Shown one piece after another: positions 5,453 to 17,113 of a stretch of 52,595 bases of DNA. Made by a program: the position numbers and the translations under genes. Position 1 is the first letter of the stretch; each line of letters begins with the position of its first letter. The stretch is from Candidatus Woesearchaeota archaeon (lineage in GTDB: Archaea > Nanobdellota > Nanobdellia > Woesearchaeales > UBA10216): contig NZCN01000002.1 in assembly GCA_002688315.1 (NCBI GenBank), positions 102,979 through 155,573 on the forward strand, in the 5' to 3' direction. The notes beneath the pieces were generated by a model, which saw nothing but the letters and a program-made list of their open reading frames with translations, made no database searches and was not told the origin of the DNA.

Positions 5453-5534
5453 TCAGCAAATTACAGAACTGTTGCATACATGATGGTATATCCCAGTATT
5501 CGACTGTTCATAGCGTATTGAGGTGTTCATTTTA

Positions 5535-8500
5535 ATGTTGAATAAAAAAAGAAGTGAGCTTTTACGTTTATTTGTTATTGTAGCCTTACTCGCTATGAGT
5601 GTTGGTGTAGTTCTAGTTTATTCCGCAAAAGTCGATTCCAGTTCTCAGCAAAGCAACCCTATATTTGTAAAAGGAGCTGACAATTCCAGTGTTAATTTCA
5701 CTATAACTGTTTCTTCTGGAAGCAATACTGTTAGGTATGTTGGCGTAAACAGGCCTGCAAGTTACTCAACCATAAACTGTCCTGACAGTAACCCTCCTAG
5801 TTGGACATGCAATAAAGCAAGTGCCAATCTTATAGCATTTACGAATAATGATGGTATAACTGCTGGAAATTCTGCACAATTCATGCTTAATGCAACTTCT
5901 GGTGCTACTTCAGGCAATGTTAGCTTCACAATAAACACTTTTGAAAACACTGCTGGAACAACTGCCCAAAACAACACCATAATGAACGTAACTGTTGACG
6001 ATGAAGCTCCAACAATAAGCATAGTTAACGTTACTTCAGGCACATTCCTTGTTACTAACTTTTCAAATAATAATACTTTCCTTCCAAAAAATGCTCTGAT
6101 TATTAATGCAACTGTGCTAAGCAGTATTGGTCCTGTTGCACAAGGAGGAGTTGCTCTTTATGTAAACATCACTAATGCATCCAGCCATGTAAAGTTCCAA
6201 CCAGTACTTCCGCACCCAACCCTTGCTGAAACATTCCTTCATCAAGTCCAAATGGAGAATACTACTGTAATTACCACTGTTGCAGGCAGGTTTAATGCTA
6301 CTATTCCAAGCAATCTCATTGAAAACGGCAGTATTGTTGCATTTGTTATAGTTGCAAATGACACTGCCGGAAATCTAAACGTAACTAACTATAGTCTTTC
6401 AGGTTACACTGAAAGTTTTATGGGCTTTAACGTTACTATTGATGATGCTGCCCCTCAACTTTCCATTGCTGGCTTTGATGATGCTTTCGACGCGCAGCCT
6501 GATAACATCACTACTTCCAATCAAACCCACAATTGGTCTATTTTTGTTGACAACTCAGGCGGTGCAGCAATACATTCGGTTTTCATGAACGTTTCAGGCA
6601 CACTGACTGAGATGGCTAGTGGCGGTCAAAACATCTATAATATATCAGAAAGATCCTTATGGAATCTAGGCCTAACCCAAGGAGACGTTAACTTAACAAT
6701 CAACTTCCTTGCAAACGACTCGGCGGGTAACTTGAACGACACCTTTACCCTTGAATTATTGGTTGATGACCCTGAAGTTAACTTCGCGGTTTTCTCAAAC
6801 GTAAGTAACAATTTCACTACTAATAACGTGACGATTATTAATATCACCTTTACACTTATTAACGGAACTATCAATTCGACCGGCGCTGTTGCAAATCAGA
6901 GTAACGTAACTATTCACGGTCCTAACGATTTATACTTCAACATGACTCGAGGAGGAGACGCTGGCGGAATTAGAGACAATATTGGTGCGGCCAATCAGAG
7001 TATCCATCATTCCACGTGGTTCTCTTCCATTGAAACCCTATCTAACAACGGTAGCACCTGGTCCAACCTTTCATCTCTGGGTTGCACGGATATTAGCGAT
7101 GATGGTGGAGTATGTCAACTGCAAATCGTCTGGAGTGATATATTCGGTAGATTAAATAATACCAATATTTCAATAACTATTGACAATCACCCCCCTAATA
7201 TTTATAACTCTTCACTTGATGGAGCATCTGACCAGAATGCAGTAGGTGTTCAAACAAATCGTATCGTTGTTGTTAAATCTACAGATCTCCTTAACATTAC
7301 GGTTAACGTGGAGAACAACGTTGAAAATGTACTTGTAAGGAATAATAGTAATAAAAACTCGGATCTACTAGCTAACAGCACCGTAATGGCTGCTGGAGGA
7401 GAAAGGAATTACAGCGCAGAGATAAGACCTGGTGAGTTCTGTGTTGGAGAGGGTGAATGTCTCATTACTTTCTATGCTAATGACAGTGCACTTAATTTTA
7501 ACCAAACAAACACTACTAATATCACAGTTATAGTTGACGATACCGCACCTACTGTAGGAAGATATGGTGGAATAGCAGCTAATACTGCGGTATCAGGATT
7601 CCTTATGTCAAACTTTTCCGGCTTAGATACCGGTGATAATATTCTCGCAGCAAATATTTCCGGTACTAATCAATCTACTTTCAGAGGTTTTACGCTAGTT
7701 GATGGTGGTGTACTAGTTAAAGGCTCCGCAATCTTTAACTTAACAGTAAACGTCTCTGATGAATTCACAAACGTTACTTTAGTTAGTGCTGCTAACTCGA
7801 CTTTCATGAATTTCACTCTAGGCGAGTCATCTGAACAATGGCATGGCGTTAACTCTTCTAACGAGTTATGTGGATTGACAGGAAATATTATTGAGACTAC
7901 GTGTTTACTTACATTTACTGCTAAAGACAACGTTAGTAATACGAACTCTACAACAACTCTTCTTTTGAGAATTGACAGCGAGGCGCCAAGAGTATCTAAC
8001 TTGACCACCAATTTAAGTTCAGCATTTACAAATGATCTTAGCAGAGAAATCAACTTTTCAGTAGATATAATAGATGCTAACCTTGGAGAGTTTAACGTAA
8101 CACTAAACGGAACGTCTCATGTTCAGATGAACAGAACCGACAGTTCAGAAAGTAACTCAACCAAAGTTAAGTATTGGGTTGTAACAACCTTAACAACATT
8201 AGGTTGTTCAGACGGCGCAGCATGTACTATAAGCATTACCGCCAACGATTCGGTAAATAATGTTAACGACTCAATAAACATACAAGTTACCGGCGACACT
8301 AGTGCTCCTGCTGTGCTCAGCAGAACAGCTAACGCAATATTCAAGACCGCAAACCCTCTGATACATGCAAATACTAGTGGTCCTGCAGACTGCAGATATG
8401 CCACTAATGGTCCAGATAACTATTCCCAAATGGCTAGTCAGTTTGATACTCAAGGAACCAAAAATAACTCTTTTGTAGCATCTAATCTACGAGATAAAGC

Positions 8501-8957
8501 TAATTACGCATATGATATTTCATGTGTTGACTTGAACGGCATCGCAGCAGCGGATTTGGTAGGAAACAAACAAGCCACGTTCGATGTAGACACAACCTCA
8601 TTGTGGAACATAACCATCGGCGCAACCGGCGCATTAAGCGCAACAGCGGACTATTTTACATTATCCAATAAGTTCTATAAGTTCGAATTGGTAAACACAA
8701 ATGTATTAACAACTACTTCCCTAAACGGCGGTACATTCAACGTTACCAACGTACTCGCATCAATTACAGGAACTGACGGCCCTGTAGGTGATAATAACAA
8801 TCTAAGCATATTATACGCTTACAATAGAACTGGTGATTCATGGACCTCTTTTGTTCCTGGTAGAACTTCAGGCAATGATTTCACTAATTTCACGTCTGAT
8901 GTAATGGATTACTACGTTAACTTATCAAACGCCAACGAAAGACTAGAAATCGGCTAA
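5535..8957 (+). CDS. Giant exported glycoprotein with about seven Ig-like repeats (S-layer-like)
   Basis: The product is 1140 aa. ATG 5535 is chosen over GTG 5523 because GAGGTG (5519-5524) sits ten bases ahead of it. Residues about 8-27 are a signal peptide or N-terminal anchor. The rest is Asn/Ser/Thr-rich with several dozen N-x-S/T sequons and consists of Ig-like repeats whose joints read [VI]DDxAP or variants (VDDEAP, IDDAAP, VDDTAP, IDSEAP, GDTSAP). Most repeats end with two cysteines 6-13 residues apart, probably a disulfide each. There is no C-terminal transmembrane helix, PGF-CTERM or sorting tail. It is best read as a major surface-layer or stalk glycoprotein; that is inference from composition and domain type. 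Confidence 0.85.
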   Translation: MLNKKRSELLRLFVIVALLAMSVGVVLVYSAKVDSSSQQSNPIFVKGADNSSVNFTITVSSGSNTVRYVGVNRPASYSTINCPDSNPPSWTCNKASANLIAFTNNDGITAGNSAQFMLNATSGATSGNVSFTINTFENTAGTTAQNNTIMNVTVDDEAPTISIVNVTSGTFLVTNFSNNNTFLPKNALIINATVLSSIGPVAQGGVALYVNITNASSHVKFQPVLPHPTLAETFLHQVQMENTTVITTVAGRFNATIPSNLIENGSIVAFVIVANDTAGNLNVTNYSLSGYTESFMGFNVTIDDAAPQLSIAGFDDAFDAQPDNITTSNQTHNWSIFVDNSGGAAIHSVFMNVSGTLTEMASGGQNIYNISERSLWNLGLTQGDVNLTINFLANDSAGNLNDTFTLELLVDDPEVNFAVFSNVSNNFTTNNVTIINITFTLINGTINSTGAVANQSNVTIHGPNDLYFNMTRGGDAGGIRDNIGAANQSIHHSTWFSSIETLSNNGSTWSNLSSLGCTDISDDGGVCQLQIVWSDIFGRLNNTNISITIDNHPPNIYNSSLDGASDQNAVGVQTNRIVVVKSTDLLNITVNVENNVENVLVRNNSNKNSDLLANSTVMAAGGERNYSAEIRPGEFCVGEGECLITFYANDSALNFNQTNTTNITVIVDDTAPTVGRYGGIAANTAVSGFLMSNFSGLDTGDNILAANISGTNQSTFRGFTLVDGGVLVKGSAIFNLTVNVSDEFTNVTLVSAANSTFMNFTLGESSEQWHGVNSSNELCGLTGNIIETTCLLTFTAKDNVSNTNSTTTLLLRIDSEAPRVSNLTTNLSSAFTNDLSREINFSVDIIDANLGEFNVTLNGTSHVQMNRTDSSESNSTKVKYWVVTTLTTLGCSDGAACTISITANDSVNNVNDSINIQVTGDTSAPAVLSRTANAIFKTANPLIHANTSGPADCRYATNGPDNYSQMASQFDTQGTKNNSFVASNLRDKANYAYDISCVDLNGIAAADLVGNKQATFDVDTTSLWNITIGATGALSATADYFTLSNKFYKFELVNTNVLTTTSLNGGTFNVTNVLASITGTDGPVGDNNNLSILYAYNRTGDSWTSFVPGRTSGNDFTNFTSDVMDYYVNLSNANERLEIG

Positions 8958-9000: not shown

Positions 9001-10140
9001 ATGGTTTCCGCTATAATCACTAATAATCGTAAAGTCTTAGCTATATCTATTCTATCACTAGTCTTAACACTTTCCTTGGCTTTATCAACCACCGCAGCCT
9101 TTTCTTGGTATGGGAACGTGACAATAGGCACAAATTCTACTACTGATGGTGCTAAAATTGGAGCTTATATTGGCAGTTCCGCAACTGCTAATGCAGTTCA
9201 AGAAGTTGGGGCTGGCAGTTTTGCAGACGGCCAATATGTAATTACTGCTGGATGTAGTGCTGGCGATGCTGTTTTCCTCAAAGTGTGGGGCATAAATGCT
9301 ACAGCAGGAATCTGTGAGCTTGGACCTGCTACAGGCAATAATTCAAATCTTTCCGTTTCTTTAGTAGCATCTGGCGGTTCTTGTACTTATAGCCAGGCTT
9401 GTTCAGACACTAACTACTTTTGCTGTTCTGGCTCTACTGAAGTTAATGACGGCTCTACAACAGGTGCTACTTGCAAGTCTACCTGTGCTGCTGCGACTAC
9501 TCCCACTAGTGGCAGTGGCAGTGGCGGAAGTTCAGGAGGTGGCGGAGGAGGGTCTGCTCTTAAGTCTGAATCGTCTACTCCTGTTACTATAAGCGGTTCT
9601 GGCAGTAAAGATTTATCATTTACAAAAACTGTTGATATTGCTGTTAGTAATGTAGAACTTACAACTACTGCAGCAGCAGCTATTACAAACGGCAAAGTTA
9701 CTGTCAAAGAGACTAAAGTTTCCAGCGGCATTTCTTCTGGTGTAGCAAAAGGCAATACTAAAGTTTACAAGTATCTTTCAATCACCAAGCAAAACATTAA
9801 GAGTGAGGATTTGGAAAAAGCCAAGATTACGTTTGAGGTTTCTTTCGGTTGGATAAATTCTAATAACATTGACCCTGATAGTGTTAAGCTTAACAGGTAT
9901 GTTAAGAGTGAATGGGTTACTTTAAATACAAAGCGTCTTGGCAAGGCTAACTCAAGAGGCTATGTATATGAGGCAGAAACACCTGATTTTTCCATCTTTG
10001 CTGTTTCCGGAGAGAAAAGACCTGATAAACTAACAGCTTTCCAGCTTATTGATATTATAGAAGCATTTTATGCTGACACATCGCCATATAACGCGTTCCA
10101 GGTTATAGATTTAATAGAGAAATTTTACGCTGATGCTTAG
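9001..10140 (+). CDS. Exported protein with PGF-pre-PGF-like domain and duplicated dockerin-like tail
   Basis: The product is 379 aa. A signal peptide covers residues about 10-33. The N-terminal domain (35-165) is Gly/Ala/Thr-rich with scattered cysteines including a CC pair. A Ser/Gly linker with six consecutive glycines follows (about 168-186). Residues about 190-335 match the PGF-pre-PGF domain: FGWINSNNIDPDSVKLNRY, then a strand ending in EAETPDFSIFAVSG. The last 34 residues hold two near-identical 14-mers, AFQLIDIIEAFYAD (346-359) and AFQVIDLIEKFYAD (365-378). There is no C-terminal membrane helix, so retention must rely on the tail or on a partner. The next gene is translated directly after it. 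Confidence 0.85.
   Translation: MVSAIITNNRKVLAISILSLVLTLSLALSTTAAFSWYGNVTIGTNSTTDGAKIGAYIGSSATANAVQEVGAGSFADGQYVITAGCSAGDAVFLKVWGINATAGICELGPATGNNSNLSVSLVASGGSCTYSQACSDTNYFCCSGSTEVNDGSTTGATCKSTCAAATTPTSGSGSGGSSGGGGGGSALKSESSTPVTISGSGSKDLSFTKTVDIAVSNVELTTTAAAAITNGKVTVKETKVSSGISSGVAKGNTKVYKYLSITKQNIKSEDLEKAKITFEVSFGWINSNNIDPDSVKLNRYVKSEWVTLNTKRLGKANSRGYVYEAETPDFSIFAVSGEKRPDKLTAFQLIDIIEAFYADTSPYNAFQVIDLIEKFYADA
10036..10134 (+). repeat. Duplicated 14-codon module at the 3' end of the gene
   Basis: Copies at 10036-10077 and 10093-10134 encode 14-mers identical at 11 positions, 19 codons apart. The pattern x-F-x-[LV]-I-D-x-I-E-x-F-Y resembles paired helices of dockerin-like tails, without the Ca-binding DxNxDG loop. 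The DNA copies differ at many silent sites, so the duplication is old and kept at the protein level. Confidence 0.8.
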
Positions 10141-10153
10141 GGAGGCTTTAAAA

Positions 10154-10822
10154 ATGAAGAAAATAACTAAAATATTTTTGATGATATTTGCTATTGTAAT
10201 TCTTTCAACGTCTGTTTTTGCTGCTTCTGTAAGCAGAAGCATGCCTGCTAGAGTTAGTCCTGGTGATGATATTAGCATGGTTTTGTCTGTAAGCGGAGCT
10301 ACTGCTGGTGAATTGTTCACTTTAAGAGACCAGGCTCCTCAAGGATGGAGAGTTGACGCATGGGATGTTACTGGCGCTGAAGGCGGCAAAGAAGCTGTTG
10401 AATACCAGTTTGTAGCAGAAGATAACAAGCACGGCTTTAGCTTTAATCCAGATTCTTCTAATGCTCAAATCACTTTTACAGTAAAAGTGCCTAACAGTGC
10501 TAATGGTGATTACAAATTTACTGCTGTTTACTTTGATAAATCAGGTTTTAACAATCAGGAAGCAACTACCACTGTCCGCACAATAACTTGCGGAGACAAT
10601 GTTTGCGAAGGAGATGAGAACTCAGACACTTGCGTGCAAGACTGTCCTCTTCCTCCTCCACCTTCAGAAACAGCTCCAACCACAGAAACTCCTGCTGAAG
10701 AGGAAGCCACTGGTGTCAGTACTGGAATGATTATGCTGATTGCATTGGTTGTTGTAGGAGCAGTTGCATTCTTCCTTTACAGCAAGAAGAAAAAGCCTGC
10801 AGCTCCAGCTCCAAAAGCATAA
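10154..10822 (+). CDS. Exported protein with cohesin-like/Ig-like domain, Cys motif, Pro-rich stalk and C-terminal membrane anchor
   Basis: The product is 222 aa from ATG 10154, ten bases after GGAGG (10141-10145), which follows the upstream stop immediately. ATG 10133 inside the upstream gene is rejected. A signal peptide ends near residue 24. Residues about 25-140 form one beta domain opening with SMPARVSPGDDISMVLSVSG and containing APQGW. That opening resembles domains that accompany dockerins or cohesins. A CGDNVC-x9-C-x3-C cysteine motif, a Pro/Glu/Thr stalk, a membrane helix (about 190-211) and a Lys-rich cytoplasmic tail follow. The tight coupling with the unanchored upstream protein suggests the two work together, this one holding the pair in the membrane. 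Confidence 0.82.
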   Translation: MKKITKIFLMIFAIVILSTSVFAASVSRSMPARVSPGDDISMVLSVSGATAGELFTLRDQAPQGWRVDAWDVTGAEGGKEAVEYQFVAEDNKHGFSFNPDSSNAQITFTVKVPNSANGDYKFTAVYFDKSGFNNQEATTTVRTITCGDNVCEGDENSDTCVQDCPLPPPPSETAPTTETPAEEEATGVSTGMIMLIALVVVGAVAFFLYSKKKKPAAPAPKA

Positions 10823-14581: not shown

Positions 14582-17113
14582 ATGAAAAAGACGGTGAGTT
14601 CGTTTCTATTAGTTACTTTAGTATTCATATCTACCTTGTTCTTGATAAACTTCGCTTTGGCTGACTTTTACGAGCTGGTGTCGCCTTCCAATAATACGTT
14701 TGCAAACCAGCAAAACAACAATTTCACAGTAAATGCCAGTTTTACAAGAAATAATTCCTTAACCAATGTTTCCTTGTGGTTAAGCCAGGCAGGAACGCTA
14801 AGCATTAACAGCACAAACCAGTCTGCTGTTGCTAACAACTCGCTCCAAAATTTCAGTCTCATACTAAACGAAGGCAAGTATAACTGGACGTTTTCTATCA
14901 CATTAAACAGTACTGATACGTTAATAAACGACACAAACTACACTTTGACTGTTGACCTTACATATCCAAATGTAAGCCTGCTGCTTCCTGCTGCTGGTAA
15001 TTACTCAAATGAGCTGCTTTTCAATTCTTCAGCTAATGATAGCTTGTCTGGTGTTGTCAATGTTTCTTACGGTTATGAAAAGCCTGGTAGTGCAATTGCA
15101 TGGATTAGCGACGGAACTTCAGTAACTGCTTGGAACGCTACCCTTGATACGACTGGTGTGGCTGATGGCAAGTGGAATATTACTGTTAATGCTACTGATG
15201 AGGCTGGCAACCAAAATGTAACAGTAAACATTACTGAAATTATTATTGATAACAATGTGCCTAACGGCACTATTTTAATTCCGATTAATAACTCAAATAT
15301 TTCAAGCAGTGTTTACATAAACACATCAGTAAATGACAGTGGAACAGGAGTAATGGCTGTTGCTATTGGTTACCAAAACACCTCTTCAAGCCTTACCTGG
15401 GTTAATGCCACTGAAGACGGTTCTGGCGGTTGGAACGCTACCATAAACATTTCAAACTTTGTAGAGACTGTTTACAACTTAAGCATTAACACCACTGATT
15501 TCAGAGGCAATAGCACTGTTAAATACAACATTACTTTTTTCACTTTTGACACAACTCCTCCAAAGCTTGCTCCTACTGCGGTATTTGCAAATACCAGCCG
15601 TAATAACGGTAACATTAACATTACTTGGACAGAGCCTAGTGATGAGACTGCCGAGAGCTATATTGTTTACAGGTTTAGGTCTAACATTACTACGTTTAAT
15701 AAAAGCTTGACCAACATTACAGCTAATCGTGTTCCAGAAGGAACTGGATTCTTCCTGGATAATGGAACTACTGGCGATAACCGATCTTTTTATTGGTATA
15801 GCGTAGTTGCTGTAGACAATGCCGGAAACCTTAATACATCTAATGGCGCAGCTAATCTTTCTTTAAATGCCATTAATGTTTCTGTTAACGATTCTGTTAT
15901 GCCAAAATCACCTGCTAACCTTAACTATAGCGCCACAAATGCTGGCGGTATTACCTTACATTGGCTTAACGTAACTCAGGATGTTCCAGGCGACCCTGAC
16001 GGTTATAACATTACCTTTAGGGTTTACAGAAGCAATGCCAATGTTGTTGTTAACTTAAGCAAATATTCTTACGTTAATCTTAGCGATACCAATGCTGGAA
16101 TCACTAGGCAGATTGGCGAAGTCATAACTACTAACTCAACATCGTTTTCCGTGACAGCTAACGGCTCTTACATCTTTGTAGTAACTTCTGTCGACGACAA
16201 CGGCAATGAAAATAAGAGTCATGATAACTCTGTTTCTTCTCCGAATATACTTAATGTAACTATAAGCATAACTTCTGATGGTAGTGATGATGATTCCTCT
16301 TCAAGCAGCTCTGGTAGCGGTGGTGGCAGCGGAGGTAGTGGCGGTGCAGCTGCTGATCCTAATGCTGGCGTTAGCCAATCTCGTTCCTGGGACGTGATTG
16401 ATGCTGGCGCTACTGCAACATTTAAAGTTACTAAGACAGGTATTCCGATTACATCTTTAAAGTTTAAAGTTACTGAAAAAGTTGAGGATGTTGAGATTAC
16501 TGTAACAAAGCTTTCAAAGAAGCCTTCCAATGTTAAGACTGATTATGGCGGAAAAGTTTACAATTACATTTCCATAGTCAAGCCAAACCTTAAAGATACA
16601 GCCATTTCATCAGCAACTATTGACTTCAAAGTTGAGAAAAAATGGCTTGAATCAAATAGTGCATCTTCCAGCGACGTTGTCTTTCTAAGATATAACAGAA
16701 ACGAGTGGAATGAACTTTCTGTTAAACATGTTAAGTCAGACGATACTCATTACTTTTATGAAGCTGAATCTCCTGGGTTTTCCACGTTTATTATTGGCCT
16801 GAAAGAAGTTGAAACTGCAGCATCATTGAATGAGTCTGGAGAATCAGACACTGGCACTTCAGATGACGGAACAATTGAGGATAATGAAACTGGCAGTCCT
16901 GAAGATGAAAAAACTCAAAAAGGAAAAGCTTTGCTTTACACGGCAATTGCTATAATCGCAATAGCTGTTATAGGAGGAGCTTTAGGATTTTTCTACTACA
17001 GAAAGAGCAAAGGCGCTCTTGGCAGCTCAGAAGACTCTGATTCTGATGATTCAGAAGAAGAGGAAGAAAAACCAAAAGAAGATAAAAACAAGTCAAAAGA
17101 CGAAAATACGTAG
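14582..17113 (+). CDS. Membrane-anchored surface protein with Ig-like, fibronectin III and PGF-pre-PGF-like domains
   Basis: The product is 843 aa. After a signal peptide (1-28) come Ig-like repeats with joints VDLTYP, IDNNVP and FDTTPP, then a clear fibronectin III module opening near NINITWTEPSDE (about 335-440) and a second Fn3-like stretch. A Ser/Asp/Gly linker (about 563-590) leads to a PGF-pre-PGF-like domain ending EAESPGFSTFIIG. A membrane helix (about 781-806) precedes a strongly acidic cytoplasmic tail with Ser-Asp-Glu runs. Sequons are frequent. Domain type suggests adhesion or a structural envelope role. The shared linker and domain tie it to the 9001 and 10888 products. Confidence 0.88.
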   Translation: MKKTVSSFLLVTLVFISTLFLINFALADFYELVSPSNNTFANQQNNNFTVNASFTRNNSLTNVSLWLSQAGTLSINSTNQSAVANNSLQNFSLILNEGKYNWTFSITLNSTDTLINDTNYTLTVDLTYPNVSLLLPAAGNYSNELLFNSSANDSLSGVVNVSYGYEKPGSAIAWISDGTSVTAWNATLDTTGVADGKWNITVNATDEAGNQNVTVNITEIIIDNNVPNGTILIPINNSNISSSVYINTSVNDSGTGVMAVAIGYQNTSSSLTWVNATEDGSGGWNATINISNFVETVYNLSINTTDFRGNSTVKYNITFFTFDTTPPKLAPTAVFANTSRNNGNINITWTEPSDETAESYIVYRFRSNITTFNKSLTNITANRVPEGTGFFLDNGTTGDNRSFYWYSVVAVDNAGNLNTSNGAANLSLNAINVSVNDSVMPKSPANLNYSATNAGGITLHWLNVTQDVPGDPDGYNITFRVYRSNANVVVNLSKYSYVNLSDTNAGITRQIGEVITTNSTSFSVTANGSYIFVVTSVDDNGNENKSHDNSVSSPNILNVTISITSDGSDDDSSSSSSGSGGGSGGSGGAAADPNAGVSQSRSWDVIDAGATATFKVTKTGIPITSLKFKVTEKVEDVEITVTKLSKKPSNVKTDYGGKVYNYISIVKPNLKDTAISSATIDFKVEKKWLESNSASSSDVVFLRYNRNEWNELSVKHVKSDDTHYFYEAESPGFSTFIIGLKEVETAASLNESGESDTGTSDDGTIEDNETGSPEDEKTQKGKALLYTAIAIIAIAVIGGALGFFYYRKSKGALGSSEDSDSDDSEEEEEKPKEDKNKSKDENT

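Follow-up and report, generated by a model that had tools for sequence, protein, structure and literature searches.

Cohesins and dockerins have also been described from archaea, and these versions bind (PMC9012536), while in the S-layer of Sulfolobales the unanchored SlaA is held by the membrane-bound SlaB (PMC10903991). The window analysed here, i.e., the whole stretch of 52,595 nucleotides from a Candidatus Woesearchaeota archaeon, encodes a neighbouring pair of exported proteins, termed T and B in the following, that probably forms a dedicated, non-covalent plug-and-socket anchor of the cell surface. To our knowledge, almost nothing is known about the surface attachment of proteins in DPANN archaea, and the lineages concerned are uncultured.

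Gene layout of the pair in the window

The sequence-only reading of this locus had described two open reading frames in a translational-coupling layout (9001-10140, 379 aa, and 10154-10822, 222 aa), and both are found as it had them, with a GGAGG motif right behind the TAG stop of T and the ATG start of B 13 nt past this stop. The features are as follows.

9001..10140, + strand: tail protein T, exported, unanchored, 379 aa, carrying a PGF-pre-PGF domain and, at the C-terminus, the doubled tail
9634..10011, + strand: PGF-pre-PGF domain (TIGR04213), T residues 212-337, 81.7 bits versus a cut-off of 28
10036..10077, + strand: tail repeat 1, AFQLIDIIEAFYAD, T residues 346-359, predicted helix
10060..10062, + strand: Glu354 of T in repeat 1, column with Arg/Lys in 14/17 other tails
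10093..10134, + strand: tail repeat 2, AFQVIDLIEKFYAD, T residues 365-378, predicted helix
10117..10119, + strand: Glu373 of T in repeat 2, column with Arg/Lys in 15/17 other tails
10141..10145, + strand: GGAGG ribosome-binding site, abutting the T stop (TAG)
10154..10822, + strand: anchored partner B, 222 aa, with signal peptide, beta-sandwich domain, Cys-rich stalk, membrane helix and basic end
10220..10585, + strand: nine-stranded beta-sandwich domain in B (residues 23-144; AF2, Foldseek), proposed socket
10325..10327, + strand: Arg58 of B, column with Glu in 16/17 other B proteins, proposed tail contact
10589..10645, + strand: Cys-rich stalk motif of B, CGDNVCEGDENSDTCVQDC, kept with the membrane helix in the fused relative L028
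10721..10777, + strand: membrane helix at the C-terminus of B (residues 190-208; 19-residue hydropathy 2.66)

T starts with an N-terminal hydrophobic segment and a Cys-containing N-terminal region, followed by a Gly-rich linker, the PGF-pre-PGF domain, which clearly passes the curated cut-off, and a 40-residue end; in accordance with the earlier description, a C-terminal helix is absent. The two 14-mers noticed in this end (AFQLIDIIEAFYAD and AFQVIDLIEKFYAD) are indeed identical at 11/14 positions, above the maximum of 6/14 obtained by shuffling the tail (300 trials) or of 7 by shuffling the whole of T (60 trials). In B, the expected N-terminal hydrophobic segment and C-terminal helix are both present, and a Pro/Glu-rich stretch lies between the CGDNVCEGDENSDTCVQDC stalk and the membrane helix. 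Tail and beta domain occur in one copy each in the genome of the window (0.91 Mb, 99.7% complete), the named GTDB relatives of which are groundwater Candidatus Woesearchaeota. A search of Rfam over the window gave zero matches.

Directly upstream of T, a 1144-aa giant protein with many N-glycosylation-type Asn motifs is encoded (5523-8957, + strand), and the same position is kept across most of the family. Neither a Pfam/NCBIfam match nor a C-terminal membrane helix was found in this protein, which may belong to the surface coat. Behind B follow a subtilase (PF00082; 10888-14538, + strand) bearing a PGF-pre-PGF domain and a membrane helix of its own instead of the tail, and another PGF-pre-PGF membrane protein (14582-17113, + strand) extending the surface-protein cluster.

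Linkage of tail and partner across genomes

Profiles of the tail (36 positions) and of B were run over the 353 genomes of the order, and the matches were read in their gene context. With strong tails defined by E below 1e-12, the tail profile returned 16 of them in 15 genomes. Strong matches to the B profile were obtained in the same 15 genomes and, in addition, in G141 and G146, where the gene upstream of B ends in a diverged doubled tail. All of the resulting 18 tails, from 17 genomes, terminate a gene that is directly followed by B; the linked pairs share ancestry and are, hence, not independent observations. The association of the 14-mer pair with a neighbouring anchored beta-domain gene, put up as a check in the sequence-only reading, consequently applies to 18/18 canonical tails, the remote tail-like end of G406 apart (see below). 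Homologues of T lacking a B neighbour also lack the canonical tail. Within the family, full homologues of B were found in seven further genomes, with a tailed same-strand gene directly upstream in 7/7 cases. In G248, the pair of tailed gene and B gene is present twice, one pair adjacent to the other. Of 19 pairs (including that of G353 described below), 18 have a spacing between T and B of -4 to +13 nt, and the remaining one has 70 nt.

The order-wide search also gave weak tail matches in G021 and G210, which were taken to be chance. A B-like beta domain with Cys stalk is also part of a 420-aa protein in G213 (L087, 5815-7077), with no tailed gene adjacent, and a search for B in viral contigs found none. 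L102, a contig of 3850 bp that is assigned to Candidatus Diapherotrites and is probably mis-binned, carries a B gene with near identity to the one in Woesearchaeota genome G005.

Outside the order, the profile built from the 18 tails gave one weak match, in G353 (E 6.7e-4), and the gene directly downstream of this tail is B (B profile, E 1.7e-42), complete with stalk and membrane helix. An extended tail profile then picked up G387 (E 4.7e-6) and G406. A search by the tail alone has thus predicted two further linked B genes, those of G353 and G387, while no B was found on the 11.8-kb contig carrying the tail-like end of G406. In G387, a single B-like gene (E 1.8e-8) lies between two tailed ones (L176, 13203-14245 and 9679-13167), suggesting that two plugs share one socket. 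The weak tail matches of the class search, such as those in G384, G527, G580 and G595, are located inside unrelated enzymes or short frames instead of terminating a surface protein, and they were rejected as chance. A distant case is G171 (L089, 2924-5584), where a calcium-loop-like stretch, GDTNNSECIDIDE, stands ahead of the first tail helix, a B-like gene adjoins, and T itself gives a weak match to Pfam cohesin (E 0.0023). Because its B-like protein does not have a membrane helix, G171 was kept apart from the other pairs; its tail is a possible link between the present tail type and true dockerins.

Topology and cargo

The topologies of T and B are complementary. Beyond the N-terminal 55 residues, a 19-residue stretch with a mean hydropathy above 1.59 is found in 0/18 T proteins, whereas 18/18 B proteins end in a 19-residue stretch with values between 1.86 and 3.58. 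Tail motifs on proteins that carry their own membrane anchor, which would have spoken against the earlier reading, are accordingly absent among the canonical cases. In G137, G143 and G248a, a contig end truncates the T gene, so that the export signal falls outside the readable sequence. The tail is attached not only to short and giant PGF-pre-PGF proteins but also to an Ig-type giant without PGF-pre-PGF domain (L080) and to a 2741-aa subtilase (L083). Being found on unrelated types of cargo, it is a portable module.

Replacements at the same locus

Genus g10, which belongs to the same family, has conserved the order giant protein, T and subtilase, while order-wide profiles find neither B nor tail in it. 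Here, T has kept its N-terminal region and ends in a different module with a membrane helix and a basic end (5/5 genomes read). A second replacement is seen in G003 (L028), where T and B make up a single reading frame of 537 residues, in which the PGF-pre-PGF domain passes straight into a stalk and helix matching only positions 131-208 of the B profile. Searching this genome with the tail and B profiles found neither tail nor beta domain. In both replacements, tail and beta domain have been lost jointly and a covalent anchor is present instead, which argues that the two together act as the anchor and is the strongest evidence for this role.

Structure and family membership of the partners

The AF2 model of the B domain shows nine strands (pLDDT 94.5, pTM 0.85). 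With this model, Foldseek ranked the CLIPPER/DUF11 structure 9ifr first (TM 0.73/0.73), and the top eleven matches include the Archaeoglobus fulgidus cohesin 2xdh (TM 0.60/0.55) and the cohesin 4uyp (0.64/0.56), in a broad Ig-like field in which other Ig-type folds equal or beat the cohesin scores. The label cohesin-like given to B in the sequence-only reading holds at most for the fold: neither B of the window nor any of 13 members matches Pfam PF00963 (cohesin). The domain does show the CnaA-like nine-strand fold of CLIPPER, and DUF11 (PF01345) stays below its curated cut-off, with a best E of 0.001 in 2/13 members and 17.9 bits versus 24.6 in G219. The B alignment (A5) contains no Lys column that is invariant or nearly so, and a conserved isopeptide bond is therefore not expected; among the CLIPPER domains as defined in PMC12617251, some also lack this bond. 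Matches of B to catalytic families were not obtained with Pfam and NCBIfam.

The pair of a same-genus relative, whose genes are in frame, was read through into one chain of tail, signal peptide and beta domain. In the resulting model, the beta domain is well folded and the tail consists of two helices (9-20 for repeat 1 and 28-40 for repeat 2). Type I dockerins possess two calcium-binding loops, each with a helix after it. The tail shares the tandemly duplicated helix with them (11/14 identity between repeats, two helices in the model). By contrast, an Asp/Asn-rich calcium loop is present in 0/18 tails, as the earlier reading had claimed for the window, and the only loop-like stretch is that of the distant G171. 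Tails of the window pair and of the A5 members do not match a dockerin family of Pfam. Likewise, sequence searches of the PDB with B, the tail profile and the G171 tail resulted in weak Ig-type matches or none, with zero matches for the tail profile at E 10.

Charge states of tail and beta domain

Only two columns of the tail alignment are conserved as basic, and they occupy the equivalent position in each repeat. In the window, both are occupied by Glu (residues 354 and 373), against Arg or Lys in 14 and 15 of the 17 other tails, respectively. Among the conserved charged columns of B, only residue 58 is reversed in the window, being Arg where 16/17 others have Glu. The two same-genus relatives show the common charge state in tail as well as in B. 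Overall, reversals at conserved charged columns amount to 4/216 cells. The beta domain has three conserved acidic columns, and at this rate the chance that one of them is reversed is roughly 5%. The combination of Glu354 and Glu373 with Arg58 is, hence, suggestive of a charge swap, in which the tail residues 354 and 373 would contact residue 58 of B. In G141 and G146, on the other hand, acidic tail residues are accompanied by an unchanged Glu58, so that the argument is not general and the pattern could be due to chance.

Proposed mechanism and alternatives

According to the mechanism proposed, T would be exported without an anchor of its own and would carry as plug a hairpin at its C-terminus, made up of two short amphipathic helices that are nearly identical. 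This plug would dock onto the single beta-sandwich domain of B as socket, and B, whose stalk is rich in Cys and Pro and whose C-terminal helix holds it in the membrane, would thereby tether T to the cell surface. Translational coupling would provide both partners in one dose, in line with a putative 1:1 stoichiometry. The two-part anchoring device envisaged in the sequence-only reading is well supported by strict linkage, co-duplication, complementary topology, the portable tail and two natural replacements, whereas physical binding of T to B is what we infer from these.

Alternatively, the tail might be a self-association or lattice module of T, or bind another surface protein, with B being a co-expressed, independent stalk protein. 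Such a role could be expected from two-fold repeats, which often mediate dimerisation, and from tailed giants that could form a surface coat; moreover, no tail-B interface was seen in the read-through model, which came with neither contact nor error map and does not enter the case for docking. However, self-association would leave unexplained why tail and beta domain constantly occur together and are jointly lost, why every tailed protein is devoid of an anchor, and why the fused relative has retained just stalk and helix of B, and we regard it as rather improbable. The C-terminal position and fixed length of the tail and the synthesis of a membrane partner in fixed ratio would also fit a sorting or processing signal, with B as membrane receptor, chaperone or processing factor instead of a permanent anchor. 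Archaeosortase signals, though, contain a membrane segment and a basic cluster, both missing from the tail, and B has no catalytic family match, while one B per T and co-duplication fit a stoichiometric partner and not a catalyst, making this explanation highly improbable.

A third reading, a true cohesin-dockerin pair by descent in which the dockerin has lost its calcium loops, concerns the origin of the system and is compatible with docking of T onto B. The nine-stranded sandwich, the cohesins among its best structural matches including archaeal 2xdh, and G171 with its GDTNNSECIDIDE loop, neighbouring B-like gene and weak cohesin match on T all point in this direction. Nevertheless, Pfam cohesin and dockerin matches are missing from the window pair and the A5 members, the top structural match is CLIPPER/DUF11, the tail has a period of about 19 residues and no loop, and the B-like protein of G171 is without membrane helix. 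Accordingly, common descent appears unlikely, albeit worth considering. Returning to T and B as plug and socket, it is reasonably likely that they represent a portable, calcium-free family of DPANN archaea, in which a doubled 14-residue helix tail on a CLIPPER-like domain tethers diverse cargo. Such a family would be distinct from cohesin-dockerin in sequence and evolutionarily interchangeable with a direct membrane anchor, and it may hold the main coat where the tail ends a giant protein. The module is small and testable, with domains of about 40 and 120 residues, and, thanks to the natural swaps at one locus, the case for an anchoring role can be made with unusual ease even in the absence of genetics. 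If true, it would reveal the anchored ones among the exported proteins together with their anchors, and the pair might provide a compact orthogonal docking tag.

Comparison with known systems

In the literature searched, with most subscription papers outside its scope, no description of such a pair was found. The non-cellulosomal cohesin-dockerin systems of Archaeoglobus fulgidus and ANME (PMC9012536, 2xdh) resemble it in the short duplicated helical module on the exported protein, the nine-stranded sandwich on the partner and the predicted non-covalent linking of surface proteins. In contrast to them, T and B have neither calcium loops nor a dockerin or cohesin family match, and T has one dedicated partner next door, in single copy in nearly all genomes. 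With SlaA-SlaB (PMC10903991), the pair shares an unanchored outer protein and a membrane-anchored beta-domain partner with C-terminal helix. However, B has one beta domain on a short Cys/Pro-rich stalk where SlaB has three domains and a long coiled coil, and the tether proposed here is a defined doubled tail. The CLIPPER/DUF11 domain (9ifr, PMC12617251) is the best fold match of the B domain over both lengths and has the same type of protein location, but the B domain is below the Pfam cut-off, has no invariant isopeptide lysine and is a single, proposed docking domain, whereas CLIPPER forms a tandem stalk. Hence, the T-B pair would work like cohesin-dockerin or SlaA-SlaB and probably belongs to neither family; sequence matches to the cohesin, dockerin and CLIPPER families are absent or below the cut-off. 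Judged by its genes, it would be a variant of non-covalent two-part surface anchoring, with binding as the predicted part, and, if so, suggests a second, calcium-free solution to the problem solved by cohesin-dockerin and SlaA-SlaB.
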